64,000 nt of DNA, from contig NZ_JAQZAM010000025.1 of NCBI RefSeq assembly GCF_028737215.1, positions 1-64,000 on the forward strand, in the 5' to 3' direction. Position 1 is the stretch's first letter. Each line of letters starts with the position of its first letter. This DNA is from Actinomycetospora chibensis. GTDB lineage: Bacteria > Actinomycetota > Actinomycetes > Mycobacteriales > Pseudonocardiaceae. Of the stretch, positions 19,636 through 58,861 are shown one piece after another. The notes under the pieces were generated by a model. The model saw nothing but the letters and a program-made list of their open reading frames with translations, was not told where the DNA came from and searched no databases. The translations under genes and the position numbers were made by a program.

Positions 19636-19672
19636 GCCCGAGAGCGTGGCAGCGGGCTCAGCAACAATGCCA

Positions 19673-24823: not shown

Positions 24824-26064
24824 TAATGGACCGCCTGGACTTCGGTTAGCCTCGGACTGTTCAAAGTGAGTAGCAGTAGAATAATCTGCACTAGAAACGC
24901 GATCGCACCCGCCAAGGCTGCGCCGTTGGCACCAATCAAGTAACCAAGTAGACCGATCGACGCAAGGTGCAACGACGCCACGACCCAGGCAATGGACGCC
25001 GCGTGTGTTGGAGTGATTACCTGCACTCCGCTATTCAAGACCGACGAGATTGCCGCGAGACTTAACGAACCAATTGCAATGGCTGTCGGCATAGAGCTGC
25101 TCCCGTAGCCTGCGCCGAGAACTACTGGAAGCAAGAAATAGGCAGCAGCCGCCAGTAGGAGGTAGAACGGGACAGCCAGAATGACGACAGGGAGAACATC
25201 TCGCCGACCGAGCGGGCGACCTTCCCGAGACAATCTCGCGAGGACGAGTTGCGCATACGTCGTGGGCAGGATTCGAAGTGGTGGAACTAGACGACTAGCC
25301 GGCGCAAAGGACGTCGCTGCTTGCAGGCCCCCGGCTGCGCCTAGGACCACGAGGTCTAGTTGGCGCACTTGTTGAGCTATTCCGTTCATCCAGAACGGCA
25401 TTACTGTACGTAGTACTTCTGCCCGACTTTGATGGGCTACCCCGTCGCCCACCGCAAAGCTTCCGATACGTGCGCCGAGAAAGATCAGCGCCGCAATCGA
25501 TGAAGCCGCGGACGAGATCGCGAATACCTCCACTGAGTTAACTTCGACGACACCCGCCACCAATACCGCAACTAGGACAAGCGCTCGTCTTCCGACTAAT
25601 GCGATGCTACCCCGGACGATGCGATTCCAAGAAACAAGGTAGACGGTCCTGACCTCAACCTGCCTCTCGGCGGCGACCCACACCGCTAGAGGCAATAGTT
25701 GGATAAGGATTAACGAGTCAAGCAGTCTCGCCGCTATGAATAGCCCTACAAAGGCGGTCACTGCGGACGCGACGGCAACGTCGCGCCCCAGTCTCAAGAT
25801 CGCTAAGACTTGGCCGCTATCATTGTGGAACCGCGCAATGGCCGTACCGCAGCCAAGGTCGGCGAACGCCTGAAAGAGTAGGAGCGCACCAAGCGTTGCG
25901 GAGAACACCGCGAACTCGGTCGGGGCTAGTGCCCGGGCGATCACCACGAGGGTAATGGCCTGAAGCAGTGTGGCGGCTATCCGGCTCGATGCAAATCCCG
26001 TGAACGACCTCAGCAAATCAAGGCCATCCCGACATCCGTGCGGCTCCGCTTGAGGCCGGCCCAT
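24823..26064 (-). CDS. oligosaccharide-lipid flippase (Wzx-like, MOP superfamily)
   Basis: 413 aa from ATG at 26064, 8 bases after the gmd stop. Around 12 to 14 hydrophobic segments; early FASSRIAATLLQAITLVVIA and ALAPTEFAVFSATLGALLLF match the opening of polysaccharide transporters. It would flip the lipid-linked repeat unit to the outer face for the polymerase. The in-frame upstream extension overlapping gmd is rejected because of its Pro/Arg-rich shadow composition. Between this gene and gmd the GC content jumps, marking the right border of the low-GC block. Confidence 0.83.
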   Translation of the reverse strand: MGRPQAEPHGCRDGLDLLRSFTGFASSRIAATLLQAITLVVIARALAPTEFAVFSATLGALLLFQAFADLGCGTAIARFHNDSGQVLAILRLGRDVAVASAVTAFVGLFIAARLLDSLILIQLLPLAVWVAAERQVEVRTVYLVSWNRIVRGSIALVGRRALVLVAVLVAGVVEVNSVEVFAISSAASSIAALIFLGARIGSFAVGDGVAHQSRAEVLRTVMPFWMNGIAQQVRQLDLVVLGAAGGLQAATSFAPASRLVPPLRILPTTYAQLVLARLSREGRPLGRRDVLPVVILAVPFYLLLAAAAYFLLPVVLGAGYGSSSMPTAIAIGSLSLAAISSVLNSGVQVITPTHAASIAWVVASLHLASIGLLGYLIGANGAALAGAIAFLVQIILLLLTLNSPRLTEVQAVH

Positions 26065-26071
26065 GGAGAAG

Positions 26072-27049
26072 TCATCGGCCGAGGGCGGTCGTCTCGGCGT
26101 CGACCATGAGGTGGGCGAGTTGTTCGGGCATGGTCTGGGCCTTCCAGCCGAGCTCGCGCTGGGCCTTGGACGCATCCCCGATCAGGGCGTCGACCTCGGT
26201 CGGCCGCAGGTAGGTCTCGTCGAAGCGGACGTGCTTCTCCCAGTCGAGCCCGACCCGCTCGAAGCAGTACCGGGTGAACTCCCGCACCGTGGTCGCGGTC
26301 CCGGTGGCCAGCACGTAGTCGGTGGCCTGGTCGGCCTGCAGCATCCGCCACATGCCCTCGACGTACTCCTCGGCATACCCCCAGTCCCGCACCGCGTCGA
26401 GGTTGCCGAGATACACGTTCTCCTCGATCCCCGCCGCGATGCGGGCGGCGGCGCGGGCGATCTTGCGGGTCACGAACGTCTCCCCCCGCCGCGGGGACTC
26501 GTGGTTGAACAGGATCCCGTTGACCGCGAACAGCCCGTGGGCCTCGCGGTAGTTCCGCGCCATCCAGTACCCGTAGACCTTCGCCGCCCCGTACGGGCTA
26601 CGCGGGTAGAACGGGGTGTCCTCGTCCTGCGGCGGCGGGGTCGCCCCGAACATCTCCGAGGACGACGCCTGGTAATACCTCGTGTCGACCCCGACCATCC
26701 GGATCGCCTCGAGCAACCTCGTGGTCCCCACCCCGGTGGTGTTGCCGGTGTACTCCGGCTCATCGAACGACACCCGCACATGCGACTGCGCCGCCAGGTG
26801 ATACACCTCGTCGGGACGGATCTTCTCGATCAACGTCACCAGACGCGAGCTGTCGGTCAGGTCCCCGTAGTGCAGCACCAGACGCTGATCGCGCTCGTGC
26901 GGATCCTGATACAGGTGATCGATCCGCCCGGTGTTGAACGTCGAGGAGCGACGGATGATCCCGTGCACCTGATAGCCCTTCGAGATCAACAACTCGGTCA
27001 GGTACGACCCGTCCTGCCCCGTGATCCCCGTGATCAACGCCCGCTTCAC
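26072..27049 (-). CDS. gmd: GDP-mannose 4,6-dehydratase
   Basis: 325 aa, full length. Converts GDP-D-mannose to GDP-4-keto-6-deoxymannose, the first step to GDP-L-fucose and related sugars. Extended SDR features are plain: GITGQDGSY (8-16) in the NADP Rossmann loop, SSSEMFG at 129-135 with the catalytic Glu, YGAAK with Tyr153 and Lys157, NHESPRRGE at 182-190, and [18 protein letters not shown] at 27049. The matching GDP-fucose synthase is not next door but at 41047-42012. High GC, unlike the genes downstream. Confidence 0.95.
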
Positions 27050-27058
27050 TGCGCCCCC

Positions 27059-27856
27059 CTACTCAGACATCTTTTCGTGCACGACACTCGGACGAGCGGC
27101 GAAAGCCCCAGAATCGTCGCCACGTTGGTCGCCTCGCCGAAAGAGCAGATCGGCCTGGAGGATCTCGTGCGACTCTCCACGAGCAGGATTTTCGATCGCG
27201 ATCAACTGGAACCCACGGGACGAGAGATAGGCAATGATCTCGGTGCCCAGCGCTTGGCCTTCGTAGAGATGCCTGAAGGAGCACTCGAGGTAGATGTCCG
27301 CGAAGCCTCGAATTTGCTCGCCGAGCCCTTTCAGTACCTCCAACTCCAGCCCCTGGACATCGATCTTCAGCAGACCGGTCCCCGCACCGAACTCGGCGGT
27401 GTGCCGGTCAAGACGATGTACGGGCACCGAGAAACGGCCGACTTCGCCGGCGTTCGCAACCTGCTCAGCCAGCTCGCCCACCGGAAGGAGTGAGGACGAA
27501 TCCTCGCGGCCGGAAACAATGAATTCCTCGATGCCCTCCTCGTTACTGAGGGCGACTTCGTGTACCTCACCCCGGCCACCGACGACCGCTCTTGCAGTCG
27601 CTGCACATTTGGGCTGCGGCTCGAAGCAGAACAAGCGGGAATGTGGCCACTGGTTCTTCGCGAACGACGCGAACTGCCCTCTGGACGCTCCGGCATCGAC
27701 GACGTAGTCGTAATGGCTCAGGAAAGGAACTTGCAGGTGCTCCAGCCCTGGGAAGACGCCCCTCCGGAGGTCGCTCCAGTAGGCTGGTCGCGTAGCGAGC
27801 CTGCCAACCTTCATTATCCGCATCCGAAGGATCTCCAGTTTCCAGCGGATGCTCAT
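27059..27856 (-). CDS. FkbM family SAM-dependent methyltransferase
   Basis: 265 aa. FkbM-type O-methyltransferase: SAM loop VVDAGASRGQFASFA near 50-65, acidic FCFEPQP, and the family hallmark LLKIDVQGLELEVLKGLGE. Such enzymes often cap or decorate sugars in surface glycans, which fits its place between gmd and a glycosyltransferase. The gap to gmd is 9 bases. GC is intermediate, between the high-GC gmd and the low-GC block. Acceptor sugar unknown. Confidence 0.85.
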   Translation of the reverse strand: MSIRWKLEILRMRIMKVGRLATRPAYWSDLRRGVFPGLEHLQVPFLSHYDYVVDAGASRGQFASFAKNQWPHSRLFCFEPQPKCAATARAVVGGRGEVHEVALSNEEGIEEFIVSGREDSSSLLPVGELAEQVANAGEVGRFSVPVHRLDRHTAEFGAGTGLLKIDVQGLELEVLKGLGEQIRGFADIYLECSFRHLYEGQALGTEIIAYLSSRGFQLIAIENPARGESHEILQADLLFRRGDQRGDDSGAFAARPSVVHEKMSE

Positions 27857-43732: not shown

Positions 43733-44359
43733 TCAGGCCGGTAGCACCGTGCCCGCGTGCTCCGTCCCTGCGTGCTCCGTCCCCGCGTGCAGCGGGCCCG
43801 CGTCGTTGACGGCGAGCAGCAGCGGCACCGGTCCGCTCGTGTCGATGCGGCACACCGCGGCGTCGACGAGGAACATCCGCCACGCGATCTCGATGCCGAC
43901 CCCGAGGGCCCAGCTGATCGCCGCCTTGATCGGCGAGACGTGGCTGACCACCACCACCTCGCCCTCCGCCGCCTCCGCCGCCAGGTCGGCGCACGCGGCG
44001 GCCACGCGGTCCCGCACCGCCACGAGCGACTCGCCTCCGGCCGGCACGTGCTCGGGGTCGGAGCGCCAGGCGTGCCAGGCGTCGCCGTCGAGGGCCGTCA
44101 TGGGTTGGCCGTCGAGCTCGCCGTAGTCCATCTCGGTCCACCGCGTGTCGACCTCGACGGGCACCTCGGCACCGAGGAGCACCGCGGTCTCGCGGGCCCG
44201 GACGAGCGGGCTGGTCACCAGCCGCGTCGGCCGCGGGAGCCCTGCGGCGAGGGCGCGGGCCTGCCGCCGTCCGGTCTCGGTGAGCGGCGGGTCGGCCCGC
44301 CCGCACATCACCCCGCGGGCGTTGGCCTCACTCTGACCATGGCGGACGAGGGTGAGCAC
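43733..44359 (-). CDS. histidine phosphatase family protein
   Basis: 208 aa. Branch-1 histidine phosphatase: TLVRHGQSEAN with the phospho-accepting His near residue 7, LVTSPLVRARETA with its Arg, EMDYGELDG and VVVSHVSPI with the second His. It removes phosphate from small molecules or sugars. GTG start at 44359. The C-terminus carries three HAGTE repeats from a short DNA repeat (about 43747-43790). It overlaps the end of the upstream membrane-protein gene by 52 bases, so the two are co-transcribed. Confidence 0.85.
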   Translation of the reverse strand: MLTLVRHGQSEANARGVMCGRADPPLTETGRRQARALAAGLPRPTRLVTSPLVRARETAVLLGAEVPVEVDTRWTEMDYGELDGQPMTALDGDAWHAWRSDPEHVPAGGESLVAVRDRVAAACADLAAEAAEGEVVVVSHVSPIKAAISWALGVGIEIAWRMFLVDAAVCRIDTSGPVPLLLAVNDAGPLHAGTEHAGTEHAGTVLPA

Positions 44360-45432
44360 CTACGCCACGGTAGTGCCGCCCGAGTGGCGATCCGGTGCGC
44401 ATTCGGGCGACGAGCAGCGTCCGCGAGCAGCACCAGGGCGCCCGGAGCGCACGAGATCAGGGCGAGGACGCCGTAGACGACGGCCGTCGCGAGCCCCTGG
44501 CCCGGGGCGAGGCCGACGGCGGCGAAGGCGACGGCCGCCACCGCCTCCCGCGGGCCCCAGCCGCCGACCGTCAGGGGCACCGACATCGCCAGGAGCGCCA
44601 CGGTGAGGAGCGGGAGCAGCTGCCCCAGGGGGGCGGTGACCCCGGCCGTGCGGGCGGCGACGACGAACAGCGCGAGCAGCCCGGCGAGCGCCACCAGCGA
44701 GAGCAGGACGACGGCGGGCGCGGTGCGCCACCGGCCGAGGCCCTCGCGGACGTCGCGCATCGCCGCGACGAGCCCGAGGCGCCACCGCGCCGCGCGGCGG
44801 GCGGTCCAGAGCCAGCCGACGACGCCGGCGACGAGGAGGACCACGCCGGCCGCGACGAAGCCGAGCCCGGGGCCGACGACGGCGTGCACCACGGCGGGCT
44901 GCGCGAACAGCACGGCGGCGCCGACGGCGACGACCACGACCTGGCCGGCGACACGCTCGATCACCACGGCGCGCGCGCCGCGTCCGTCGCCGGGACGGTG
45001 GTGACGCACGGCGCGGTGCACGTCGCCGAGCACGCCGGCGGGCAGCAGCGAGTTGAGCAGCGTCGCGCGGTACGCGTCGGCGGTGGCATCGCCCAGCGGC
45101 AGCGTCAGCCCGACGCCGCGGGCGACGACGCACCAGCGGGCGGCGCCGGCGACGGTGGTGAGCGCGCCGAGCAGGAGCGCGGCGGCGACCACCGGCCCGG
45201 AGATCCCGGCGAGCGCCTCGACCACGCCGCCGGCGCCCAGGCGCACGACGAGCAGGACGGGGAGGCCGAGGCCGACGACGAGGCGGATCACGGTGCCGAG
45301 GCTAGGCATCCGGCGGGGTGCGGGAATCGCCTTCGGAGAATGAGGGGCGGCGGTCTCGGGGCTGGTGCGGGGAACGGGGACGTCGATCGTCGGGGGCGGG
45401 GTCGAGCAGGTCACGGGCGCGGGGAGCGTCAC
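44308..45432 (-). CDS. lysylphosphatidylglycerol-synthase-type (AglD/YbhN) membrane protein
   Basis: 374 aa with about eight membrane segments. Family signs are LLPAGVLGDVHRAVRH (the LPA-G-xx-D element near the first third), AVVIERVAGQVVVVAVGA and PLTVGGWGPREAVAAVAFA. Members are thought to be flippases or partners of lipid and glycolipid synthesis; only the MprF subset adds lysine, and no synthetase domain is present here. The start is uncertain: GTG at 45432 gives a Pro-rich leader, ATG at 45309 starts directly before the first helix. Its end overlaps the histidine phosphatase gene by 52 bases. Confidence 0.8.
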   Translation of the reverse strand: MTLPAPVTCSTPPPTIDVPVPRTSPETAAPHSPKAIPAPRRMPSLGTVIRLVVGLGLPVLLVVRLGAGGVVEALAGISGPVVAAALLLGALTTVAGAARWCVVARGVGLTLPLGDATADAYRATLLNSLLPAGVLGDVHRAVRHHRPGDGRGARAVVIERVAGQVVVVAVGAAVLFAQPAVVHAVVGPGLGFVAAGVVLLVAGVVGWLWTARRAARWRLGLVAAMRDVREGLGRWRTAPAVVLLSLVALAGLLALFVVAARTAGVTAPLGQLLPLLTVALLAMSVPLTVGGWGPREAVAAVAFAAVGLAPGQGLATAVVYGVLALISCAPGALVLLADAARRPNAHRIATRAALPWRRCSPSSAMVRVRPTPAG

Positions 45433-45523: not shown

Positions 45524-46453
45524 TCAGGGCAGGGCCAGCAGGTCGAGGTGGCCGACGTGGACGCGCAGCCGGCCCTGCTCGGCGGCCTCGAGGCGTCGGT
45601 CGAGGTAGGCGTCGGCGTGCCGCGCAAGGTCGGGGTCCTGCGCGACGGCCGCCGACACCCAGCCGTGCAGCCAGGCGACGGCGAGGTCGACGTCGTCGAG
45701 CCCGAGCTGCCAGGGGCTGGTCCGGGAGACGACGTGGGCGCCGCGGCGGGCGAAGGCCCGCTCCGCGACGTCCGGGGCGGAGGGGCCGAGCAGCCGGCGG
45801 CCGTCGACGACCCGCTGCTGGTGGGCGTCGAAGGCCGCGGCCATGGAGACGTCGCGCGCCTCCGCGGGCTCGAGGCGGACCTGGCCGACCACGCTGAGCG
45901 TCAGCAGCGCGGCGCAACCGGCGCCGACGCACGCGGCGGCGACGGCCTCGACCTCCTCGGCGGTGAGCACGTCGAGCAGGGCCGACGCGGTGACCAGGTC
46001 GATCCCGGCGAGGTCGTCGGCGGTGAGCGTGGTGATGTCGACCGCGCGGGTCTCGGCGGTCACGGGCGAGCGGTCGCGGGCCCGGGCGGGGAGGTTCGCG
46101 GCGGCGTGGGCGAGCAGGTCGGGGTCGCGGTCGGCGAGCACCCAGTGCTGCGGGCCGGGCAGGCGGGGCGCGAGCCAGCGCGCCATCGACCCCGTGCCGG
46201 AGCCGAGGTCGAGGATCCGCCCGACGGCAGGGTGACCGGCGCGGAGGTCCTCGACGAGATCGACCGCGCGGGCCTCGGCGTCGGCGGGCTCGCGCAGGGC
46301 GAGCCAGTCGGGCGCCGCGGGGGCGCCGGGCCGGGTGTGGCCCGGGGCGGGGTGGCGGGGGCCGGGGAGTCCCCCGCTCAGCTCGGGGCGCGCAGATCCG
46401 TCAGCACCTGCTGCACCCGTTGCGAGGTCTGCGTCCACGTCGAAAGAGTGCAA
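45524..46453 (-). CDS. class I SAM-dependent methyltransferase
   Basis: About 309 aa. SAM motif I is ILDLGSGTGSMARWLAPRL, with an acidic LADRDPDLLAHAA and a later IDLVTASALLDVLTAEEVEA (motif IV/post region). Followed by LTLSVVGQVRLEP and a C-terminal helical part. The first codon at 46453 is TTG; a GTG at 46438 is equally possible. The first 50 residues look disordered. It overlaps the end of the upstream glycosyltransferase gene by 76 bases on the same strand, strong evidence of a single operon. Acceptor unknown; a glycolipid or sugar alcohol is plausible from context. Confidence 0.75.
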   Translation of the reverse strand: MHSFDVDADLATGAAGADGSARPELSGGLPGPRHPAPGHTRPGAPAAPDWLALREPADAEARAVDLVEDLRAGHPAVGRILDLGSGTGSMARWLAPRLPGPQHWVLADRDPDLLAHAAANLPARARDRSPVTAETRAVDITTLTADDLAGIDLVTASALLDVLTAEEVEAVAAACVGAGCAALLTLSVVGQVRLEPAEARDVSMAAAFDAHQQRVVDGRRLLGPSAPDVAERAFARRGAHVVSRTSPWQLGLDDVDLAVAWLHGWVSAAVAQDPDLARHADAYLDRRLEAAEQGRLRVHVGHLDLLALP

Positions 46454-47400
46454 CGCCGAGATCTCGCTGAGATCTGTCGCCCATTGCGATGCGCATGATC
46501 GGCGAACCAGCGGTGTAGTCCTGCGACGAGTGCGGGAACATCCTCAGCAGAAACTAAGATTCCGGCGCCGTCGAGGGTCTCGGGCAGCCCGCCGGCGTCG
46601 CTCGCCATGACGGGGATGCCCCGCGCGAGCGCCTCCGTCACCACCATCCCGTACGTCTCGACCCGCGAGGGCGCGACGAGGAGATCGGTCGCGTCCCAGG
46701 TCCTGTCCAGGTCAACGCCGGAGAGGGGTCCGGGGTGACGGATCCGGTCTCCCAGACCGTGCCGGGTGATGCTGGCACGCAGGTCGGCGACGAAGGTGGG
46801 GGCGCGCCGGGTGGGGCCGACGAGGTCGAGGGTCCACGGGTGCTCCGGAAGCGTGGCGAGGGCCTCGACGAGCAGGTCCTGCCCCTTGGTGGGCGTCACG
46901 GCGCCGAGGCAGAGCAGGCGGTGCGCGCCGTCGGTGCCGGTGGCGAGCGGGGCGGGGTCGACGCCGGGGACGGCGACGGCGACCCCGTCGAGGCCGTGGC
47001 GCGCGTGGAGGCGCCGCGCCGCCCAGGGACTCGTCGCGAGAACGGCCCCGGCGGCGCGCAGCACCGCGCCATCGCCGGCGTCGAGGTCGGGCGCCTCCTC
47101 GCCGAGGGGCAGGTGCACGAGCACCGCGAGGGGGCGGCGCGCGGCGCGCGGGACGACGATCTCCGGCACCCCGCACGCCACCAGCCCGTCGAGCAGCACC
47201 GGGCCGTCGCCGTCGGCGAGCACCGCGTCGAGCTCCCGGCGGGCCGCGTCGTCGGGTCGCGGCCAGGTGCCCGCGACCTGCGCGTCGCGCACGGCCACCC
47301 CGTCGGCACGCAGCCCCTCGATGAGCCGCGCGTCGTAGACGTCACCCCCGCTGACGAGGGCGGGGTCCGCCACCGGTCTCACGAAGGTCACCGCGCGCAC
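46378..47400 (-). CDS. family 4 glycosyltransferase
   Basis: 340 aa from GTG at 47400. GT-B fold: N-terminal VRPVADPALVSGGDVYDARL (donor-side loop GGDVYD), then LLCLGAVTPTKGQDLLVEAL, LVGPTRRAPTFVADL, and VAPSRVETYGMVVTEALARG with the family E-x7-E. It is most like enzymes that glycosylate lipids or sugar alcohols, with no membrane anchor. The ATG at 47433 lies inside the 46-base palindrome and is rejected as a start. The last 70 bases overlap the methyltransferase gene. Confidence 0.82.
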   Translation of the reverse strand: MRAVTFVRPVADPALVSGGDVYDARLIEGLRADGVAVRDAQVAGTWPRPDDAARRELDAVLADGDGPVLLDGLVACGVPEIVVPRAARRPLAVLVHLPLGEEAPDLDAGDGAVLRAAGAVLATSPWAARRLHARHGLDGVAVAVPGVDPAPLATGTDGAHRLLCLGAVTPTKGQDLLVEALATLPEHPWTLDLVGPTRRAPTFVADLRASITRHGLGDRIRHPGPLSGVDLDRTWDATDLLVAPSRVETYGMVVTEALARGIPVMASDAGGLPETLDGAGILVSAEDVPALVAGLHRWFADHAHRNGRQISARSRRCTLSTWTQTSQRVQQVLTDLRAPS

Positions 47401-47430
47401 CGCCCCAGCATGCCGAGGGTGCGCTCCGCG

Positions 47431-47476
47431 CATGTGAGCACTTTCGGGTGCTGGAGCACCCGAAAGTGCTCACATG
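47431..47476. repeat. perfect 46-base palindrome between convergent-side genes
   Basis: Two perfect 22-base arms (beginning CATGTGAGCACTTTCGGG) around a GG centre. It sits just before the start of the glycosyltransferase gene and 16 bases from the stop of the penicillin-binding protein gene, both minus strand. It could form a very stable hairpin and act as terminator for the PBP gene, as an operator, or be a dispersed palindromic repeat family. Confidence 0.75.
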
Positions 47477-47491
47477 GGGCGCAGCCCCACC

Positions 47492-49753
47492 TCAGCGCGG
47501 GGGACCCGGCGGCGGGGTGAGGCGACCCGAGGAGGTCGTCAGCGTCACCGTCTGTCCCTCGACGGCCCCGCCGATCGGGTCCTCCCCGACCACCGTGCCG
47601 GCCGGGGCCCGGCTGTCGACCGGCGCCACCGCCACCGCGAAGCCCGCGCCCCGCAGCGCCGCGGTCGCCTGATCGGCGGGCTCGCCGATCACCGACGGGA
47701 TCGTCGTCAGCCGCCCGCCGGTGACGAACCGCGGGTCGGGCGTGGGCAACGGCTGGACCGGGCCGCTCCCGAGGATCGGCGTCACGGCGCGGTACCAGGT
47801 CCGGGCGGGCGTGGTCCCGCCGAAGAGGTTGCCCGTCCCGCACGACGTCGGGGGCGCGCCGGTGCAGATCGGGCGCGGCGACGACGAGTCGTCGAACGTG
47901 ATCGCCGCCGCCGCGAGCGACGGTGTCGCGGCGACGAACGCGGCCGACTCCGAGGTCTGGGTGGTGCCGGTCTTGGCGGCGATCGGCCGGTTCCAGCCGG
48001 CCGCCGCCGCCGCGGCGGCCGAGGTCCCGCCGGGCTGGTCGTCCTTCGACAGCCCGGTCATCTCGGTGTCGGCCAGGGGTCCCGGCACCGCCTGCTCGCA
48101 CGCCGCCTCGTGCACCGGCACCGCCCGCCCGGTCTCGTCCGTCACCGAGGTGACGGGGCTGGGCGGGCACCAGACGCCGTGGCTCGCGAGCGTCGCGCCG
48201 ACGTTGGCGAGCTCGAGCGAGCTGGTCGGCGCGACGCCGAGGGTGAACGACGCCTGGTTCTGCGCCGTGACCGTGTCCGCGATCGACGGCTGTCCCGGGC
48301 CGGGCGACTCGGCGAGCGACCGCATCCCCAGCCGGACCGCCATGTCGACCACCGGCGCGATCCCGGTGGTCTCCTCGAGCTTGACGAAGGCGGTGTTCGG
48401 CGACTGCGCGAGGGCGTCCTGCAGGGTCATCTGCGGCGGATAGTCGCCGTCGTTGGACACGACGAAGCCCGGGGTCAGCGGTGAGGCGTAGCCGTTGCCG
48501 GGGACCGGGATCACGGTGTCGATCCCCCCGCCCTGCGCGAGGTAGGCGGACGAGGTGAAGATCTTGTAGACCGACCCCGCGCCGAGGTTCTCGGGCGTGC
48601 CGGGCAGGTCGTAGGTGGTCTGCTGCTGCGACGCGTCGAGCCCGTAGCCGCGGTTGGCGACCATCGCGGTGACACGGTGGGCGTCCGCCCCCGGCGCGAC
48701 GATCGAGAGCACGTCGGCGACGTGCGGCTGGGTGGATGGCACCTCGGCGTCGACGGCGGACTTGGCCTGCTCCGTCGCGGCGCGGTTCATCGTCGTGCGC
48801 ACGGTGTAGCCGCCGCGCCGCAGCTCGTCGGCGCTGATCCCGCTGCGGGCGAGGTCGTCGAGGACGTACGAGCAGAAGAACCCCGCGTCGCCCGCGCCGA
48901 GGCAGCCCTCCGTGGGGCCGTGCAGCGCCGGGCCGACGCCGAGGGGCGCCGCGGTGGCCTCGGCGGCCTGCGCGGGGGTGATGGCGCCCTGCTGCGCCAT
49001 CTGATCGATCACCACGTTGCGCCGCGCCGTTGCGGCCGCGGGGTGGCGCACCGGGTCGTCCTGGGCCGGGCTCTGCACCATGCCGGCCAGGAGCGCCGCC
49101 TGCGGCACGGTCAGGCGGTCGGCGGTGGTGTCGAAGTAGGTGCGGGCGGCGGCCTGGACCCCGAACGCCTGGTTCCCGAAGGAGACGACGTTGAGGTACC
49201 AGGTGAGGATCTGGGCCTTGGGCACGCCGTGGTCGAGCTGCTCGGCGACCTCCGCCTCGCGCACCTTCCGCCCGAGGTCCGGCGCCGTCGCGCGCAGCTG
49301 CTCCGCCGGCGTCCGCGCCGCGACGTACTCGTCGTAGTTCTTGACGTACTGCTCGGTGAGCGTCGAGGCGCCCTGGGTCGCGCCGCCGGTGCTGTTGTTC
49401 ACGAGCGCCCGCACCACCCCGCGGGCGTCGAGCCCGGACTCCACGAAGAAGCGGCGGTCCTCGATCGCGACGATCGCCGCCTTCATGGCCGTCGAGATCC
49501 GATCCGACGCCACGACCTGGCGGTCCTGGTCGTAGAGGTAGGCGATCGGCGCGCCGGCGTCGTCGGTGATCGTCGTGACCGAGGGCATCTGCCCGGTCAG
49601 CACCCCGGGCGTCGTCGCCTCGACGCCGCCGACGGCCTGCCCCGCGAGGTGCCCCAGACCTCCGACGACGGGGTACGCGAGACCGGCGAGCAGCAGGCCG
49701 CCGATCACCGCGATCCCCACGAGTCGCGATCCGAGGGCCACCGATCTCCGCAC
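47492..49753 (-). CDS. class A penicillin-binding protein with C-terminal PASTA domain
   Basis: 753 aa bifunctional cell-wall synthase. One N-terminal membrane helix (about 10-30), a GT51 transglycosylase domain (about 60-270) with AIEDRRFF (catalytic Glu98), and ATQGASTLTEQYVKN, then a transpeptidase domain with SVYK (Ser394, Lys397), SPN (451-453) and KTGTT (594-598). A PASTA domain (683-743) at the end senses or binds wall fragments. GTG at 49753. It polymerises and cross-links peptidoglycan outside the membrane. The alanine-rich loop (AAAAAAAG) just before KTGTT is unusual. An L,D-transpeptidase gene lies divergently upstream. Confidence 0.92.
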   Translation of the reverse strand: MRRSVALGSRLVGIAVIGGLLLAGLAYPVVGGLGHLAGQAVGGVEATTPGVLTGQMPSVTTITDDAGAPIAYLYDQDRQVVASDRISTAMKAAIVAIEDRRFFVESGLDARGVVRALVNNSTGGATQGASTLTEQYVKNYDEYVAARTPAEQLRATAPDLGRKVREAEVAEQLDHGVPKAQILTWYLNVVSFGNQAFGVQAAARTYFDTTADRLTVPQAALLAGMVQSPAQDDPVRHPAAATARRNVVIDQMAQQGAITPAQAAEATAAPLGVGPALHGPTEGCLGAGDAGFFCSYVLDDLARSGISADELRRGGYTVRTTMNRAATEQAKSAVDAEVPSTQPHVADVLSIVAPGADAHRVTAMVANRGYGLDASQQQTTYDLPGTPENLGAGSVYKIFTSSAYLAQGGGIDTVIPVPGNGYASPLTPGFVVSNDGDYPPQMTLQDALAQSPNTAFVKLEETTGIAPVVDMAVRLGMRSLAESPGPGQPSIADTVTAQNQASFTLGVAPTSSLELANVGATLASHGVWCPPSPVTSVTDETGRAVPVHEAACEQAVPGPLADTEMTGLSKDDQPGGTSAAAAAAAGWNRPIAAKTGTTQTSESAAFVAATPSLAAAAITFDDSSSPRPICTGAPPTSCGTGNLFGGTTPARTWYRAVTPILGSGPVQPLPTPDPRFVTGGRLTTIPSVIGEPADQATAALRGAGFAVAVAPVDSRAPAGTVVGEDPIGGAVEGQTVTLTTSSGRLTPPPGPPR

Positions 49754-49983
49754 GGAGGTTCATCATCCGCCGGCAGCCTGAGCCGGGTGTGAACGCGCGG
49801 TCGTCACCCGATCGAGCGGGAGGGAAAGCGTGCCGTCGACGCGTCGACCGTCGGGATGCGGGTTACCCGGGTGGCGACCGACGCCGTGGGCTCCCCCATG
49901 ACGATCGCCCGGGACACCGTCGTGAGACGGTCCCCGCCGATCCACCACGGCCGACCGTCGACCCCGACGACTTGGAGTCCCCG

Positions 49984-50490
49984 ATGGCCCGGCACCGCCG
50001 GACGTCCGACCGTGCCCGCACCGCGCGAGCGGTCCTCGCACCGATCGGACTGGCCGCCGTCAGCGCCGTGGGGGCCTCGCCCCTCGCGCTGGCAGCACCC
50101 ACCGCTCCCGCCCCGTCCGCGGTGGGTCAGGGCGACGCCGTCCCCTGCACCGACACCGCCGACGTCTGCGTCGACCTCAGCGAGAACAAGGCGTGGCTCG
50201 CCGACGACGGCGTCGCCACCGGTGACGCGATGACGATCACGTCCGGCTCGCCCGCGGACCCGACGCCCACCGGGACGACGACGGTGCAGCGCAAGGAGCG
50301 CCACCACGTCAGCCAGGAGAACCGGGACGCGCCGATGCCGTACTCGATCTTCTTCGACGACGAGGGCCGGGCGTTCCACAGCGGCGACACGGCCGGTACC
50401 TCGCACGGGTGCATCCACCTCGAGGTCGAGGACGCCCGCGCGGTGTTCGCGGCCCTCGACATCGGCGACGAGGTGCAGATCCGGCAGTGA
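49984..50490 (+). CDS. short L,D-transpeptidase (YkuD)
   Basis: 168 aa exported enzyme. An RR-containing signal (about 5-38, ending ALA) precedes the YkuD domain: His132 in AFHSGDTAG and SHGC (140-143) with catalytic Cys143, preceded by PYSIFFDDEG. It makes 3-3 cross-links in peptidoglycan or anchors proteins to it. It lacks the Ig-like domains of mycobacterial Ldt proteins and is therefore a minimal form. ATG at 49984 with TGGAG upstream; longer in-frame codons belong to a shadow. It diverges from the PBP gene. Confidence 0.87.
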   Translation: MARHRRTSDRARTARAVLAPIGLAAVSAVGASPLALAAPTAPAPSAVGQGDAVPCTDTADVCVDLSENKAWLADDGVATGDAMTITSGSPADPTPTGTTTVQRKERHHVSQENRDAPMPYSIFFDDEGRAFHSGDTAGTSHGCIHLEVEDARAVFAALDIGDEVQIRQ

Positions 50491-50495
50491 CTCGG

Positions 50496-50531
50496 GAGTG
50501 CGTGTCCGTGCCCCGGCACGGACACGCACTC
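50496..50531. terminator. bidirectional stem-loop terminator
   Basis: Perfect 16-bp stem GAGTGCGTGTCCGTGC / GCACGGACACGCACTC with a CCCG loop, between the convergent ends of the L,D-transpeptidase gene (50490) and the pterin-synthase-like gene (50530). The right arm overlaps the latter's stop codon by two bases. Confidence 0.8.
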
Positions 50532-50931
50532 ACGAGAGCGTCAGCTCGAAGCTCGCCGACGCCACGTGGGACTCGTGCAGGGTCACGGCGATGCTCGCGA
50601 GGCTCCGGCCGCCCTCGCCCAGGCTTCCGTCGCCCGCGCGGGCGCCGAGGCGCTCGGCGATGACCTTCGCGAGGTACTCGGTGGTCGTGTTGACGCCCGC
50701 GAAGTCCGGGTGCTCGTCGAGGTTGCGGTAGGTGAGGTCGGCGAGGGCCGTGTGCAGCTCCTCGGTGGCCCGGCCGATGTCGACGACGATGTTGTCGGCG
50801 TCGAGCTCGGCCCGCCGGAACGTCGCGTCGACGACGAAGGTCGCGCCGTGCAGCGCCTGCGCCGGCCCGAACACCGCCCCGGTGAAGCTGTGGGCGATCA
50901 TGATGTGGTCGCGGACGGTGACGGCGAACAT
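50530..50931 (-). CDS. 6-pyruvoyltetrahydropterin synthase / QueD family protein
   Basis: 133 aa, the full tunnelling-fold length. Metal and catalytic motifs: His14 in [19 protein letters not shown] with His28, the GADAxN-like [41 protein letters not shown] and a late [11 protein letters not shown] with His. The expected catalytic Cys near the first His is not obvious ([16 protein letters not shown] has none), so activity may differ from QueD or PTPS. No other queuosine or folate genes are nearby; the context is a set of lipid/glycan genes, where such homologues are linked to unknown biosynthesis. ATG at 50931. Confidence 0.82.
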
Positions 50932-51722: not shown

Positions 51723-52688
51723 TCAGTAGCGAACGCGCACCCCCAGGCCCGGGCGCTCGCCGGCGGCGAGGGCCGGGAGCACGTCCGGGAGGTCGTCGAA
51801 CGCGCAGGTGTCGGTGATCAGCGCGTCGAAGCGCGGGTCGGCGAGCAGGCGCAGGGCGAGCGCGAGGCGGTCGCGGAGACTCCACCGGGGCCGGCGGGCC
51901 GGGGCGACCTGGCCCACCTGGCTGGCGCGGATCGCAAGGCGCCGCGAGTGGAAGGCCTCGCCCAGCGGCACGCGGGGCGCGCGCTCGCCGAACCACGACA
52001 TCTCGATCACCTCGCCCTCGTCGCCGAGGAGCTCCAGCGACCGCGCGAGCCCGGCCTCGGTGGCGCTGGCGTGCAGCACGAGGTCGCACTCCCCCGTCGC
52101 GGCGTCCGGGGTCGCGAACCCGACGCCCAGCGCGTCGGCCACCGCGCGCCGGGATCCGTCGACGTCGACGAGCTCGACGCGCACCCCGGGGAACGTCGCG
52201 AGCACCCCCGCCACCGACGCCCCGACCATCCCGGCGCCGACCACGGCGATGCGGTCGCCCACGCGTGGCGCGGCGTCCCAGAGGGCGTTGACCGCGGTCT
52301 CGACGGTGCCGGCGAGCACCGCACGCTCGGGCGGGACGCCGTCCGGCACCTCGACCACCATCGACGCCGGCACGCGGAAGCGCTCCTGGTGGGGGTGCAG
52401 GCAGAACACGGTCCGCCCGGGGCCGGGCCCCTCCTCGACCACACCCACCGCGAGGTAGCCGTAGATCACGGGGCCCGGGAAGTCGCCGGACTGGAAGGGC
52501 GCGCGCATGCGCTCGTGCTGGCTCGAGGGCACCTCGCCGCGGAACACCAGCGTCTCGGTGCCGCGGCTCACGGCGGAGTACAGGGTGCGGACGACGACGT
52601 CGTCGGGCCCCGGATCGGGCAGCGGGACCTCGACGATGCTCGCCCGGCCGGGTGATTCGACCCGGAACGCCCGTGTCGTGCCGGTCAT
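51723..52688 (-). CDS. medium-chain zinc-type dehydrogenase
   Basis: 321 aa. MDR fold: SAVSRGTETLVFRGEVPSSQ near the N-terminus, GPVIYGYLAVGVVEEG, then the NAD(P) loop IAVVGAGMVGASVAGVLA and acidic VELVDVDGSRR. The catalytic zinc Cys of classic alcohol dehydrogenases is replaced (VSRGTE), the same pattern as in BchC-like relatives, so it may not use a zinc for catalysis. Divergent from the CDP-alcohol/LtaS-like fusion with a 39-base gap, so the two share a promoter region. It could oxidise or reduce the alcohol that the fusion protein uses; that is an inference from position. Confidence 0.78.
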   Translation of the reverse strand: MTGTTRAFRVESPGRASIVEVPLPDPGPDDVVVRTLYSAVSRGTETLVFRGEVPSSQHERMRAPFQSGDFPGPVIYGYLAVGVVEEGPGPGRTVFCLHPHQERFRVPASMVVEVPDGVPPERAVLAGTVETAVNALWDAAPRVGDRIAVVGAGMVGASVAGVLATFPGVRVELVDVDGSRRAVADALGVGFATPDAATGECDLVLHASATEAGLARSLELLGDEGEVIEMSWFGERAPRVPLGEAFHSRRLAIRASQVGQVAPARRPRWSLRDRLALALRLLADPRFDALITDTCAFDDLPDVLPALAAGERPGLGVRVRY

Positions 52689-52727: not shown

Positions 52728-55061
52728 ATGCTGGCACGCGTGCAGAGCGAGCACGGCCCGTCCCCGATCCTGACCGTCGAGCTCGTCGGCGGCGCGCTGG
52801 CGAGTGCGGGCCTGCTCGGGGTGCTCGCCGAGGGGTTCGGGCTCGGCCCTTTCGGTCTCGTCGTCGGGGCGGCGGCGGCCGCGGCGCTCGTCGCGGTGCT
52901 CGTCGGCGCCGGCGTGCCGGCCCTGGGCCCGGCGGGACGGGTGACCCTGGCCCGCGGCGTGCTCGTCGTCGGCGTCACCGCGCTCGTCGCCGATCCGGTG
53001 TCGACGCCCGCGCTCGTGGTGCTCGCGGGCGTCGCGCTCCTGCTCGACGGGGTCGACGGCCAGGTCGCGCGGCGCCGCAACGTGACCTCGGAGTTCGGCG
53101 CGCGCTTCGACATGGAGCTCGACGCGTTCCTGCTGCTGGTGCTCTCCTGGCACGTCGCGGGCCAGCTCGGGAACTGGGTGCTGCTCATCGGGCTCGCGCG
53201 CTACCTGTTCGTCGCCGCGGGCGTCGTGCTCCCGTGGCTGGGCGGGGAGCTCGAGACGAAGTTCTCCGGCAAGGTCGTGGCGGCCGCGCAGGGCATCGTG
53301 CTGGTCGTCGCGGCTTCGGAGCTGCTGCCGCTCGTGGCCGCGCAGGTGCTCGTCGGGGTCGCCCTCCTCGCGCTCCTGTGGTCGTTCGGCCGCGACGTCG
53401 TCCGGCTCTGGCGCGGCGCCGACACCCACCCCGTCCGCGTCCGCCGCGGCCTCGCCGCCGTGGTGACGGCGCTCGCCGCGCTGCTGGTGCTCGTCGCGCT
53501 GCTCACCCCCGGAGACATCGCGCGCCTCGTGCCGCAGTCCGGCCTCCGCATCCCGTTCGAGATCCTCGTCGCGCTCGTCGTGGCCGTCCTCCTGCCGCGC
53601 TGGGCCCGGCTCGTGGCCGCGTGGACCGCCGGCGTCGTGCTCGGTCTGATGCTGGTGCTGACGCTGTTCGACCTCGGCTTCTCCGTCGCGATCGCGCGGC
53701 CGTTCGACCCGGCGCGCGACGCGGTGCTGCTCGGCAACGCCTACGACTTCGTCGCCGAGACGTCCGGTCCCGTCGTCGGCGTCGTCATGGCGGTGCTCGT
53801 GGGGCTGCTCGGGGTCGCGCTGCTGGTCGGCACGGGCGGCGCGGTCGCCCGGCTCGCGCGGATCGCCGCCGACCACCGGTCCGGCGCGCTGCGGCTCGCC
53901 GGCGCGCTCGCCGTGGCCTGGATGGTGGCCTGGACGCTCTCGGCGCAGCTCCTGCCGGGCGTGCCGGTGGCCTCGCGCGACGTCTCCATCCGCGCCGTCG
54001 ACCGGGCCGTCGCGATCGGGGACGGCGTGCGCGACCAGCGGGCGTTCGAGCGCGAGGCCTCGGTCGACGCCTACCGCGACGTGCCCGGCGACCGCCTGCT
54101 CACCGCGCTGCGCGGGCGCGACGTGGTGATCGTCGCGGTCGAGAGCTACGGCCTGTCCGCCCTCGACGACCCCGCGATGGCGGGCCCCGTCCGGGCGGTG
54201 GTCGCCGGCGGCGAGCAGCGCCTCGGGGCCGTCGGGTACGGCGCGCGTACGGGCGTGCTGACCTCCCCCGTCGCCGGCGGTGGCAGCTGGCTCGCGCACG
54301 CCACGCTGCTCTCGGGGCTGTGGATCGACGGCGAGCAGCGCCACACCGACCTGACGTCGTCGAGCCGGCTCACGCTCTCGCGCGCCTTCCACGAGGCCGG
54401 CTGGCGCACCGTCGCCGTCCAGCCCGGCACCACGGGCCCCTGGCCGGAGGCCGCGTTCTTCGGCCTCGACCGCGCCTACACCCACGACGACCTCGGGTAC
54501 CGGGGCCCGCGGTTCAGCTGGTCGCCGATGCCCGACCAGTACCTGTTCTCCGCGTTCGACCGCCTCGAGCGCGGCCCCGGGGCGCCCCCGACGATGGCCG
54601 AGCTCGTCCTGACCTCGAGCCACGGACCGTGGGCGCCGCTGCCGCGCACCGTGCCGTGGGAGGCGGTCGGCGACGGCAGCGTGTTCGGCCCCGAGGAGCC
54701 GCAACGCTCGTTCCAGTCGATCTTCACGACGAACTCGGCCGAGGTCCGGGACGACTACCGGCGGTCGATCGAGTACACGCTCTCGACGGTCTACGCCTGG
54801 GCCGAGCGCCAGGCCACGGCGCGTCCCGACCGCGCGCCCGTCCTCGTCGTCCTGGGTGACCACCAGCCCTCGCCCGCGGTCACGGGACCGACGGCGAACC
54901 GGGACGTCCCGATCTCGATCGTCAGCCGCGACCCGGCCGTGCTCGCCGCCGTGGACGACTGGGGGTGGTCGGACGGCCTCACCCCGGACCCGGGCGCGCC
55001 CGTATGGCGCATGGACACCTTCCGTGACCGCTTCCTCGACGCGTACGGGCCGCGTCCCTGA
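52728..55061 (+). CDS. CDP-alcohol phosphotransferase fused to an LtaS-like sulfatase-fold domain
   Basis: 777 aa. The N-terminal part (about 70-230) is a CDP-alcohol phosphotransferase: Asp107-x2-Asp110-Gly111-x2-Ala114-Arg115, then Gly124, Asp128 and Asp132, an exact family signature; it would transfer an alcohol phosphate from, or to, a CDP-lipid. The middle (about 245-410) has several membrane segments. The C-terminal part (about 465-760) is a sulfatase/alkaline-phosphatase fold like LtaS and MdoB: VIVAVESYG, LTSSHGPW (His632) and LGDHQP (Asp711, His712), with a possible Thr/Ser nucleophile near SWLAHATLLSG. LtaS alone has exactly this membrane-plus-sulfatase layout, so the protein reads as a PgsA-like plus LtaS-like fusion, able in principle to make and then polymerise or transfer a phospho-alcohol. 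ATG at 52728. Confidence 0.85.
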   Translation: MLARVQSEHGPSPILTVELVGGALASAGLLGVLAEGFGLGPFGLVVGAAAAAALVAVLVGAGVPALGPAGRVTLARGVLVVGVTALVADPVSTPALVVLAGVALLLDGVDGQVARRRNVTSEFGARFDMELDAFLLLVLSWHVAGQLGNWVLLIGLARYLFVAAGVVLPWLGGELETKFSGKVVAAAQGIVLVVAASELLPLVAAQVLVGVALLALLWSFGRDVVRLWRGADTHPVRVRRGLAAVVTALAALLVLVALLTPGDIARLVPQSGLRIPFEILVALVVAVLLPRWARLVAAWTAGVVLGLMLVLTLFDLGFSVAIARPFDPARDAVLLGNAYDFVAETSGPVVGVVMAVLVGLLGVALLVGTGGAVARLARIAADHRSGALRLAGALAVAWMVAWTLSAQLLPGVPVASRDVSIRAVDRAVAIGDGVRDQRAFEREASVDAYRDVPGDRLLTALRGRDVVIVAVESYGLSALDDPAMAGPVRAVVAGGEQRLGAVGYGARTGVLTSPVAGGGSWLAHATLLSGLWIDGEQRHTDLTSSSRLTLSRAFHEAGWRTVAVQPGTTGPWPEAAFFGLDRAYTHDDLGYRGPRFSWSPMPDQYLFSAFDRLERGPGAPPTMAELVLTSSHGPWAPLPRTVPWEAVGDGSVFGPEEPQRSFQSIFTTNSAEVRDDYRRSIEYTLSTVYAWAERQATARPDRAPVLVVLGDHQPSPAVTGPTANRDVPISIVSRDPAVLAAVDDWGWSDGLTPDPGAPVWRMDTFRDRFLDAYGPRP

Positions 55062-57118: not shown

Positions 57119-57364
57119 GACCCCAGCGTGATCCTCGCGAGCGCTGCTCGGGGCGGTGTTCGCCCAGAGCAGGACGGGCGCCTGGAACCCGGAACCCGTC
57201 GTCCCGGGTAGTGGTCCGAACGGGGGTACTGACCCACTAGGGTGACCGCGTGCCGTGGGGTGAGCGGTCGGACACGCTCCGCGCCCGCCGTCGGCCCACT
57301 CTCTGATCGTCGCGCTCCCCCGTTCGTCTTCCTCGTTCGTCCCCCGCCGTTCAGGAGCTCCCGA

Positions 57365-58861
57365 GTGACCGGAGCGCAGGACCAGCCCGACACCCCACCG
57401 GTCGACGCCCCGTCTCGCGAGCGGCGCCCGCCCTGGCGCCGGCCCCTCGTGTGGGTCGCGCTCGCCGCGGTGCTCGTCGCCGTCCTGGCCGTGACCGCGA
57501 CCCTCGGGGTCACGTCCGCCACGGCCGACAGCTCGACCGGGATGCTGCGCATCGCGCAGCTGTCGCCCGTGACGTCCGCGGTCGACATGTACGTCGCCGG
57601 CCCGGAGCTGCCCGAGACGCTCGTCGCGCCGGGCGTGGCCTACCGGGGGACCTCGCCGTACCTCACCGAGCCCGCCGGGACGTACACGCTCACGGCCCGC
57701 CCGGCCGGCGCGAGCCCGACGAGCCCGCCGGCGGTGCGGATGTCCGTCGACGTCGCCGCCGGCACCGCCCAGACCGCGGCGTTCGTCGACCCGGCGACGC
57801 CGGGCGGCCCGGAGCTGCAGGTGCTCGACGACCAGACCGCCCCGGCCGCGGCGGGGTCGACGCAGGTCCGCGTGGTGCAGGGCGCGAACGGCGTCGGGGC
57901 GCTGGACATCGATCTCACCGGCGGCCCGCCGCTCGGGCGCGACCTCTTCTACGGCTCGACCACCCCGTACGCCACGGTGCCCGCGCGGACGTGGGAGGTC
58001 GACGTCCGCTCCCGCCTGGGGTCCACGAACACCACGACGGTGCCGCTGTCCGACGGCAGCGTGACGACGCTGTTCGTGGGACGCGAGCCCGACGGCCAGC
58101 TGATCGTCGAGGCCGTGCCGGACGCCGCGACCGTCGCCGGCGTGCCCGGCCCCGGCACCGGCACCGAGCCGACGTCGTCACCCGCGACGCCGACGCCCCG
58201 CGTGACCCCCGACCCCGAGACCCCGCTGCCGACGCCGCCGCGCGTCCCGCCGGTGCCTCGCGGCGGCACCGGGGCCGGCCTCGGCGGGCTGGCCGCCCCG
58301 ACCGGGCTCGGCACGATCAGCTCCGTCGGCGCCTGGTTCGAGAGCTGGTTCTCCGACGAGCCCGACGTCCCGCCCGCGCCGCGGATGCCGCTGGCGGCGG
58401 CGCTCGCGGCCCCCGAGGGCCTGCGTCCCACCGGGATGCAGATCCCGTCGGTGGGGCTGGCGGCGCTGGACATCGCCGATCTGCGGATCGACTACCGCGG
58501 TGCCCTGCAGGCGCCGACCGACTTCGGCAAGGTCGGCTGGTACACCTCGAGCGCGGTGCCCGGCGACCCCGGACCCGCCGTGTTCGCGGGCCACGTCGAC
58601 ACCCGGCGCGGACCGGCCGTCTTCGCCCAGCTCGACCGGCTGCGGCCGGGCGACATGATCGAGGTGCCCCGCTCGGACGGCGGGACCGCGCGGTTCTCGG
58701 TCGACAGCGTCGAGTACTACCCGAAGGACACGCTGCCCTCGGATCGGATCTACGGTCCGTCGACGACGCCCCAGCTGCGGCTGCTCACGTGCGGCGGCCC
58801 GTTCGACGAGGACACTCTGTCCTACCGGGACAACGTCGTGGTCTTCGCCTCGGTGCGCTGA
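57365..58861 (+). CDS. DUF4397 domain fused to a class F sortase
   Basis: 498 aa membrane protein. One N-terminal helix (about 29-53) leads to an extracellular DUF4397 beta-sandwich (about 60-260, with LRIAQLSPVTSAVDMYVAG and repeated TLTARP/TTPYATV strands), a Pro/Thr-rich linker and a sortase domain with His410 in FAGHVDTRRG, Cys476 in LLTCGGPFDE and Arg488 in SYRDNVVVF. Class F sortases of actinobacteria anchor few, specific proteins. GTG at 57365 with AGGAG upstream. The gene stands first of a plus-strand pair and 12.7 kb or more from any LPXTG-like candidate (see 12700-13584). Confidence 0.88.
   Translation: MTGAQDQPDTPPVDAPSRERRPPWRRPLVWVALAAVLVAVLAVTATLGVTSATADSSTGMLRIAQLSPVTSAVDMYVAGPELPETLVAPGVAYRGTSPYLTEPAGTYTLTARPAGASPTSPPAVRMSVDVAAGTAQTAAFVDPATPGGPELQVLDDQTAPAAAGSTQVRVVQGANGVGALDIDLTGGPPLGRDLFYGSTTPYATVPARTWEVDVRSRLGSTNTTTVPLSDGSVTTLFVGREPDGQLIVEAVPDAATVAGVPGPGTGTEPTSSPATPTPRVTPDPETPLPTPPRVPPVPRGGTGAGLGGLAAPTGLGTISSVGAWFESWFSDEPDVPPAPRMPLAAALAAPEGLRPTGMQIPSVGLAALDIADLRIDYRGALQAPTDFGKVGWYTSSAVPGDPGPAVFAGHVDTRRGPAVFAQLDRLRPGDMIEVPRSDGGTARFSVDSVEYYPKDTLPSDRIYGPSTTPQLRLLTCGGPFDEDTLSYRDNVVVFASVR

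Follow-up and report, generated by a model that had tools for sequence, protein, structure and literature searches.

What is the function of a single actinobacterial protein that joins two kinds of enzyme normally described as separate? The question arises from a 64,000-nucleotide stretch of the Actinomycetospora chibensis genome (RefSeq assembly GCF_028737215.1, contig NZ_JAQZAM010000025.1, positions 1 to 64,000, forward strand; hereafter the window), where one open reading frame encodes a CDP-alcohol phosphotransferase (CDP-AP) followed by a domain resembling lipoteichoic acid synthase (LtaS). The product is most likely a bifunctional membrane enzyme, and the fusion points to a conserved gene module that spans at least four phyla. 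We propose, with a probability of about 0.5, that the N-terminal half (N-half) makes a phosphatidyl-alcohol and that the C-terminal half (C-half) transfers the phospho-head group of this lipid outside the cell, the head group probably being derived from GTP. The fusion gene is organized as follows.

52728..55061, plus strand: fusion gene, CDP-AP joined to a putative LtaS-like head-group transferase; 777 residues, single open reading frame
52728..53435, plus strand: CDP-AP half, residues 1-236, two extra N-terminal and six core helices (Pfam PF01066; pLDDT of the half model 88.8)
53046..53123, plus strand: signature DxxDGxxARR...GARFDMExD (D107, D110, D128, D132), four Asp kept in 23/23 sequences
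53436..53936, plus strand: five further predicted membrane helices, approximately residues 235-259, 277-290, 291-322, 348-382 and 384-403 (from model helices and loop sequences)
53937..55058, plus strand: predicted extracytoplasmic alkaline-phosphatase-superfamily domain, residues 404-777 (from Foldseek and a profile search against the PDB)
54141..54143, plus strand: E472 (VESYG), candidate metal ligand, 35/35
54285..54287, plus strand: S520 (GGGSW), probable nucleophile, at the N-end of helix 520-529 in the model, 35/35
54621..54623, plus strand: H632 of SSHGPW, 35/35
54858..54863, plus strand: D711-H712 of GDHQP, candidate metal ligands, 35/35

An initial annotation, made from the nucleotides alone, had placed a single protein with both domains at 52728-55061; the open reading frame sits at exactly these coordinates, and the domain order is upheld. 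Its base bias is strongly coding (GC at the three codon positions 0.78/0.52/0.97), and a full-length AlphaFold2 model built with 60 sequences has a mean pLDDT of 93.4 and a pTM of 0.78. The eight best relatives of the window fusion, 96% to 74% identical, all belong to Actinomycetospora (Pseudonocardiaceae); the window genome measures 6.2 Mb. An assembly or annotation artefact as the source of the join is rejected on the occurrence of both halves in one open frame at 24 of 100 loci (L021-L120), all from Actinomycetota (named as such or in the bacterial family of the window) and including assemblies of Actinomycetospora, Actinophytocola, Pseudonocardia, and Blastococcus. Loci with a stop inside the match were skipped in this count; L038 and L049 represent one place, and L041 shares 96% identity with the window. 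No supporting point was found for an artefact, the probability of which we regard as vanishingly small. The initial annotation had called for the same domain order to be sought in other genomes and had allowed that the halves might be unrelated joins; the one-frame loci supply the former and do not bear out the latter.

Among 150 genomes of the bacterial family of the window, 78 match the fusion: 15 carry it fused at full length, 55 have the halves in separate places, and 8 have the CDP-AP half alone, with counts made by eye from the match table. Separate frames for both halves occur at 39 of the 100 loci, including every locus of Pseudomonadota, Acidobacteriota, and Gemmatimonadota in which both were found. 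In a tree of 91 C-halves, the fused or split label needs three changes, at least two of them forced by well-supported branches, as compared with a mean of 20.5 for shuffled labels; the tree was built quickly and some of its branches are long, and L038, L041, and segments shorter than 290 residues were left out of it. Given halves that are separate in most matching genomes, fused in others, and in need of three changes of state on the tree, the window protein is a ‘Rosetta-stone’ fusion of partner enzymes.

Two further observations concern the halves. In L021, L022, L023, L025, L026, L027, and L029, the CDP-AP gene and the C-half gene have a small DoxX-like membrane gene between them (Pfam name from the L026 copy), and three genomes of another bacterial family (G300, G333, G354) have two C-half places each.

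The N-half matches CDP-OH_P_transf (PF01066) over residues 72-216 with an E of 2.4e-13 and 51.2 bits against a cut-off of 22. The motif D-x2-D-G-x2-A-R-x8-G-x3-D-x3-D is complete, and D107, D110, G111, A114, R115, G124, D128, and D132 are invariant in 23/23 aligned CDP-AP sequences, confirming the four aspartates named in the initial annotation as a complete signature. Models of this half contain a six-helix membrane core in which the motif spans helices 2 and 3, and the nearest fold is PgsA (7drj/7drk, TM-score 0.56-0.58 by query), with weak E values of 0.035 and worse. The complete motif is held in common with PgsA and other CDP-APs, whereas the window half has its own signature, GARFDMExDA, and two extra N-terminal helices.

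For the remainder of the protein, model helices and loops suggest five further membrane helices and a topology that would place the last domain outside, and the Arg-rich stretches RDVVRLWRGADTHPVRVRR, RWAR, and ARLARIAADHRSG occupy expected cytoplasmic positions. Foldseek comparison of the C-half with the PDB returns LtaP (4uop) at the top with an E of 9.5e-8, and the first 15 ranks hold LtaP, LtaS of three species, 3lxq, full-length MCR-1, and GacH. From rank 16 onward sulfatases, MCR-1 catalytic domains, and phosphonate monoester hydrolases appear with weaker scores. The LtaS-like layout first recognized from the sequence is thus upheld by the membrane helices and the LtaS-type fold.

The metal ligands of LtaS are a Glu, the nucleophile, an Asp, and a His. 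Judged by motif order, conservation, and helix start, the corresponding candidates in the C-half are E472, S520, D711, and H712, all invariant in 35/35 sequences, so that a C-half devoid of active-site metal ligands, which the initial annotation had named as fatal to its proposal, is not what the alignment indicates. E472 and S520 are absent from that annotation, which had pointed to GDHQP and SHGP as metal motifs. Both are present throughout, and D711 and H712 are retained as candidate ligands; the SHGP histidine, H632, more likely lies on the substrate side than in the metal site.

Formylglycine-type sulfatases carry the signature C/S-x-P-x-R, whereas residues 520-524 of the fusion read S-W-L-A-H, and a classic sulfatase was therefore rejected. 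The Pfam Sulfatase match over residues 545-716 (E 9.8e-5) scores 22.2 bits, below the cut-off of 25, and 24.4 bits in the search of its own genome, or 25 when neighbours in frame are counted. OpgB (MdoB), EptA/MCR-1, and GacH transfer the phospho-head group of a phospholipid to an acceptor outside and use a Thr nucleophile, whereas the window clade has Ser; MCR-1 and GacH are among the fold matches of the C-half. In Listeria LtaS the nucleophile is also a Thr, that of GQGKT, according to PMC4192460. A simple LtaS orthologue was rejected on the Ser nucleophile, weak sequence similarity, and unrelated gene company. Each half is a member of a known fold family, and we do not regard the C-half as an LtaS orthologue: with LtaS and LtaP it has in common membrane helices followed by an extracytoplasmic alkaline-phosphatase-superfamily domain and the pattern of E, nucleophile, and D-H, but it differs in its Ser nucleophile, in its signature GGxSWLAH / MPDQY / GDHQP, and in being fused to or paired with a CDP-AP among different genes.

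Could the C-half instead be a hydrolase that trims lipids or polymers, as a phosphodiesterase, phosphatase, or sulfatase would? Some phosphatases use Ser as nucleophile, and the matches from rank 16 include sulfatases and phosphonate monoester hydrolases; yet the top folds are transferases, full-length MCR-1 among them, the residues from S520 onward depart from the sulfatase signature, and transfer fits fusion to a lipid synthase better. We therefore consider hydrolysis unlikely and retain head-group transfer as the preferred activity.

Gene context, which the initial annotation did not address, holds the strongest evidence. Six genes near the fusion bear on it.

51723..52688, minus strand: MDR-type dehydrogenase (BchC-like), divergent neighbour of the fusion and sharing its presence pattern
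50530..50931, minus strand: PTPS homologue, close to SCO6650 (PDB 3d7j), with the motif HGA rather than HGH and no Cys in the protein
46378..47433, minus strand: GT4 glycosyltransferase of the module, conserved near the halves in relatives
45524..46453, minus strand: S-adenosylmethionine-dependent methyltransferase of the module, start uncertain, conserved near the halves in relatives
44308..45432, minus strand: LPG_synthase_TM flippase-like membrane protein of the module (PF03706, 2.3e-30)
43733..44359, minus strand: histidine phosphatase beside the module in the lineage of the window (PF00300), in 5/65 MDR loci

Comparison of window genes with the 100 loci indicates that the MDR, PTPS, GT4, methyltransferase, and LPG_synthase_TM genes remain close to those for the CDP-AP and the C-half in different phyla. 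The module recurs in Actinomycetota, Pseudomonadota, Acidobacteriota, and Gemmatimonadota, with Rhizobium, Variovorax, and Acidobacteria among its carriers, and all-against-all clustering of locus genes (Pfam and NCBIfam names) added RibA (GTP cyclohydrolase II), creatininase, and RibD_C to its list. MDR is present at 65 of 107 loci (L038 left out), and these 65 include PTPS at 62, CDP-AP at 62, GT4 at 61, methyltransferase at 53, the C-half at 51, LPG_synthase_TM at 43, RibA at 38, RibD_C at 35, creatininase at 28, and an IMPase-like phosphatase at 10; these tallies are not unbiased rates, because L021-L040 were chosen on the basis that their halves are fused or, mostly, close together, the position of MDR or CDP-AP served to retrieve seven loci, and truncation at 10 kb or at a contig end affects many. 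Neighbours outside the module (ClpN, Sortase, X90, X137) occur in Actinomycetospora loci only and serve as the only control. PBP1 (47492-49753) and an L,D-transpeptidase (49789-50490) were dropped as module genes on the same pattern in the L021-L120 scan.

The MDR gene and the fusion, or its halves, share an almost identical presence pattern. Strong MDR matches (at least 61% identity) are found in 77 of the 150 family genomes, all among the 78 with the fusion or a half (Fisher p 9e-43); weak matches of 36-38% occur in G080, G102, and G138, which have no fusion match. Three genera (g20, g22, g25) are mixed, each having some members that carry the two genes and others that lack them. Among 296 genomes sampled across the phylum, the C-half is found in 7 (E up to 1e-30) and MDR in 8 (E up to 1e-60), with all 7 contained within the 8. 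The presence pattern also gives a hypergeometric p of 2e-13; neither this value nor the Fisher p is corrected for relatedness. Among further genomes searched, MDR is present in 23/23, a set that did not cover the named loci L069 and L073; 15 of these had a lone C-half in their locus, and in the remaining 8, of which 5 had a lone CDP-AP and 3 a full cluster, MDR was already visible in the locus.

These patterns also bear on whether the halves act in sequence. Were they merely members of one pathway, the CDP-AP could make a structural lipid while the C-half adds phosphoethanolamine or phosphoglycerol to a different target, and the eight family genomes with a CDP-AP half alone suggest that the N-half may also serve independently. 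However, the fused state has changed repeatedly on the tree, and a C-half without any MDR match is seen only in G028 (86% complete) and never in the 23-genome or phylum samples. Such uncoupled action appears improbable to us, and sequential action remains our preferred reading.

What, then, would the head group be? RibA is found at 38 MDR loci, where the position equivalent to E. coli Tyr105 holds His in 15, Met in 10, and Tyr in 13. A creatininase gene is present at 25/25 of the loci with His or Met and at 2/13 of those with Tyr (L103, L110; p 6e-8), and one more His-type RibA locus, which lacks the module, also has a creatininase. Spoonamore and Bandarian reportedly found that S. coelicolor SCO6655, which has such a Tyr change, stops at a formylated intermediate. 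A creatininase-family protein of Sinorhizobium, BrbF, deformylates this GTP-cyclohydrolase intermediate, as PMC9478397 describes, and the pairing of His- or Met-type RibA with creatininase thus fits a split GTP cyclohydrolase II reaction. Within the proposed pathway, reduction by RibD_C would turn the ribosyl group into a ribityl chain and so provide a free polyol. The RibA, reductase, and creatininase families of the riboflavin pathway starts (RibA, RibD_C, BrbF) recur in the module of relatives, which, in contrast to those starts, joins them to lipid, sugar, and head-group transfer genes.

The window PTPS is close to SCO6650 (E 4.8e-57). In the canonical PTPS/QueD groups I-III of COG0720 the motifs are CxxxHGH, CxxxxxHGH, or ExxHGH, as given in PMC5041015; the window protein, reading HGA, lacks the Cys and third His of these groups. 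Ala occupies the third-His position in 56/60 module PTPS sequences and His in four, those of the divergent loci L095, L096, L098, and L099. These four come from Myxococcota, Thermodesulfobacteriota, and an unplaced proteobacterial metagenome-assembled genome, their PTPS keeps HxH, and CDP-AP was not detected in three of them. In the MDR protein the motifs SRGTE and PHQ are conserved, whereas the zinc ligands usual for such dehydrogenases were not seen. With a PTPS that lacks the known motifs and an MDR that lacks these ligands, the reactions are not readable from family names.

In the chemistry and direction that the fusion, residues, fold, and gene linkage lead us to infer, the N-half, with its active site on the cytoplasmic side, would convert CDP-diacylglycerol and an alcohol to a phosphatidyl-alcohol, which would be flipped, with the co-conserved LPG_synthase_TM protein as the probable flippase. 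On the outer face, S520, together with a metal bound by E472, D711, and H712, would then attack the phosphodiester, forming a phospho-head-group enzyme intermediate on the C-half, from which the phospho-head group may be handed to an acceptor. The head group itself would most likely be built from GTP by module enzymes, via the GTP cyclohydrolase II and RibD_C chemistry of riboflavin synthesis, with subsequent modification by the MDR, PTPS-like, GT4, and methyltransferase products. The two-step logic of the initial annotation, in which a lipid is made and its head group then transferred, is supported, because the genes that are fused in Actinomycetota occur elsewhere as separate partners. In a bolder version, a widespread and as yet undescribed pathway would use the ribityl-pyrimidine with which riboflavin synthesis from GTP begins, or a pterin derived from that compound, as the phospho-head group of diacylglycerol; after glycosylation, methylation, and flipping, the LtaS-like transferase would move the phospho-heterocycle onto the surface, giving a nucleobase-derived polymer or coating common to Gram-positive and Gram-negative bacteria. 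This version strikes us as possible though doubtful.

Several findings weigh against the proposed function. The fold match of the C-half is moderate (LtaS-type matches have TM-scores of 0.42-0.51 by target and root-mean-square deviations of 6.5-8.4); its best match in a profile search against the PDB, LtaP, reaches only an E of 0.042, with single stretches not significant; its hhalign comparison with OpgB gives a probability of 4.2% (E 0.0097); and a single-sequence PDB search yields no C-half match at E up to 1. The LtaS Thr is replaced by Ser throughout the window clade, the eight family genomes with the CDP-AP half have no C-half match at the cut-off used, and G028 has both halves and no MDR match. 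The divergent motifs of PTPS and MDR count on the same side, and RibA, creatininase, and RibD_C were not seen in eight Actinomycetospora loci. The window genome has a single RibA (PF00925), which lies on another contig; it also has 13 RibD_C domains and, away from the module, one creatininase-family gene. With no second RibA, riboflavin intermediates would have to be shared, and we assume that this genome draws on such a shared supply.

The initial annotation had suggested a pathway like that of lipoteichoic acid (LTA). Were the product a glycerol-phosphate polymer of this kind, the N-half would be a PgsA-type phosphatidylglycerol (phosphate) synthase and the C-half an unrecognized actinobacterial LtaS, as their nearest folds, PgsA and LtaP/LtaS, would allow. 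The window genome, however, has six further CDP-AP genes, two of which score far higher for the family (E 1.6e-47 and 1.1e-38), and glycerol LTA synthesis offers no obvious role for the co-conserved GTP cyclohydrolase, reductase, PTPS, and MDR. The module is also present in Rhizobium, Variovorax, and Acidobacteria, in which, to our knowledge, no LTA is known. The co-conserved genes thus point away from glycerol and toward a GTP-derived head group, and we give the LTA-like alternative only a small chance. In its favor, PMC3196553 reports LTA in the actinomycetes Agromyces, Thermobifida, and Streptomyces without clear LtaS orthologues. The same report corrects the earlier view that an LTA-like pathway is not expected in actinobacteria, and the presence of LTA alone in actinomycetes is, on that published account, no surprise. 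For actinobacteria, which are known to have LTA but lack clear LtaS orthologues, the fusion and its relatives offer a candidate class of enzymes that could transfer phospho-head groups.

If the GTP-derived head group is correct, riboflavin-type GTP chemistry would feed a surface lipid or polymer, constituting a surface-building pathway new to knowledge and assigning a role to the SCO6650 structure, whose deposited entry calls the protein uncharacterized, as well as to the variant GTP cyclohydrolases and the divergent PTPS group. Among the papers listed by full-text searches of open-licence literature, outside which subscription papers mostly lie, none was recognized as a description of the fusion or the module, and SCO6650 occurs in no paper of that collection. 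The Streptomyces region of the SCO6650 type resembles the module: in S. pilosus (L138), CDP-AP, MDR, PTPS, GT4, methyltransferase, LPG_synthase_TM, creatininase, and RibA genes stand in a row, whereas the C-half, unlike that of the window, is a separate gene on another contig (L072). SCO6655 belongs to the S. coelicolor counterpart of this region.

Other genes of the window were noted in passing. PBP1 carries a PASTA domain and is interleaved, together with the L,D-transpeptidase (47492-50490), with module genes. On the minus strand, a block at 18562-27856 has a lower GC content (57-64% per 2 kb, as compared with 68-79% in the rest of the window) and encodes glycosyltransferases, a Wzz/AAA_31 protein, a polysaccharide pyruvyl transferase, and an FkbM methyltransferase; it is probably an acquired exopolysaccharide island. 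Finally, a plus-strand gene at 57242-58861 combines a DUF4397 domain and a sortase domain in one protein.

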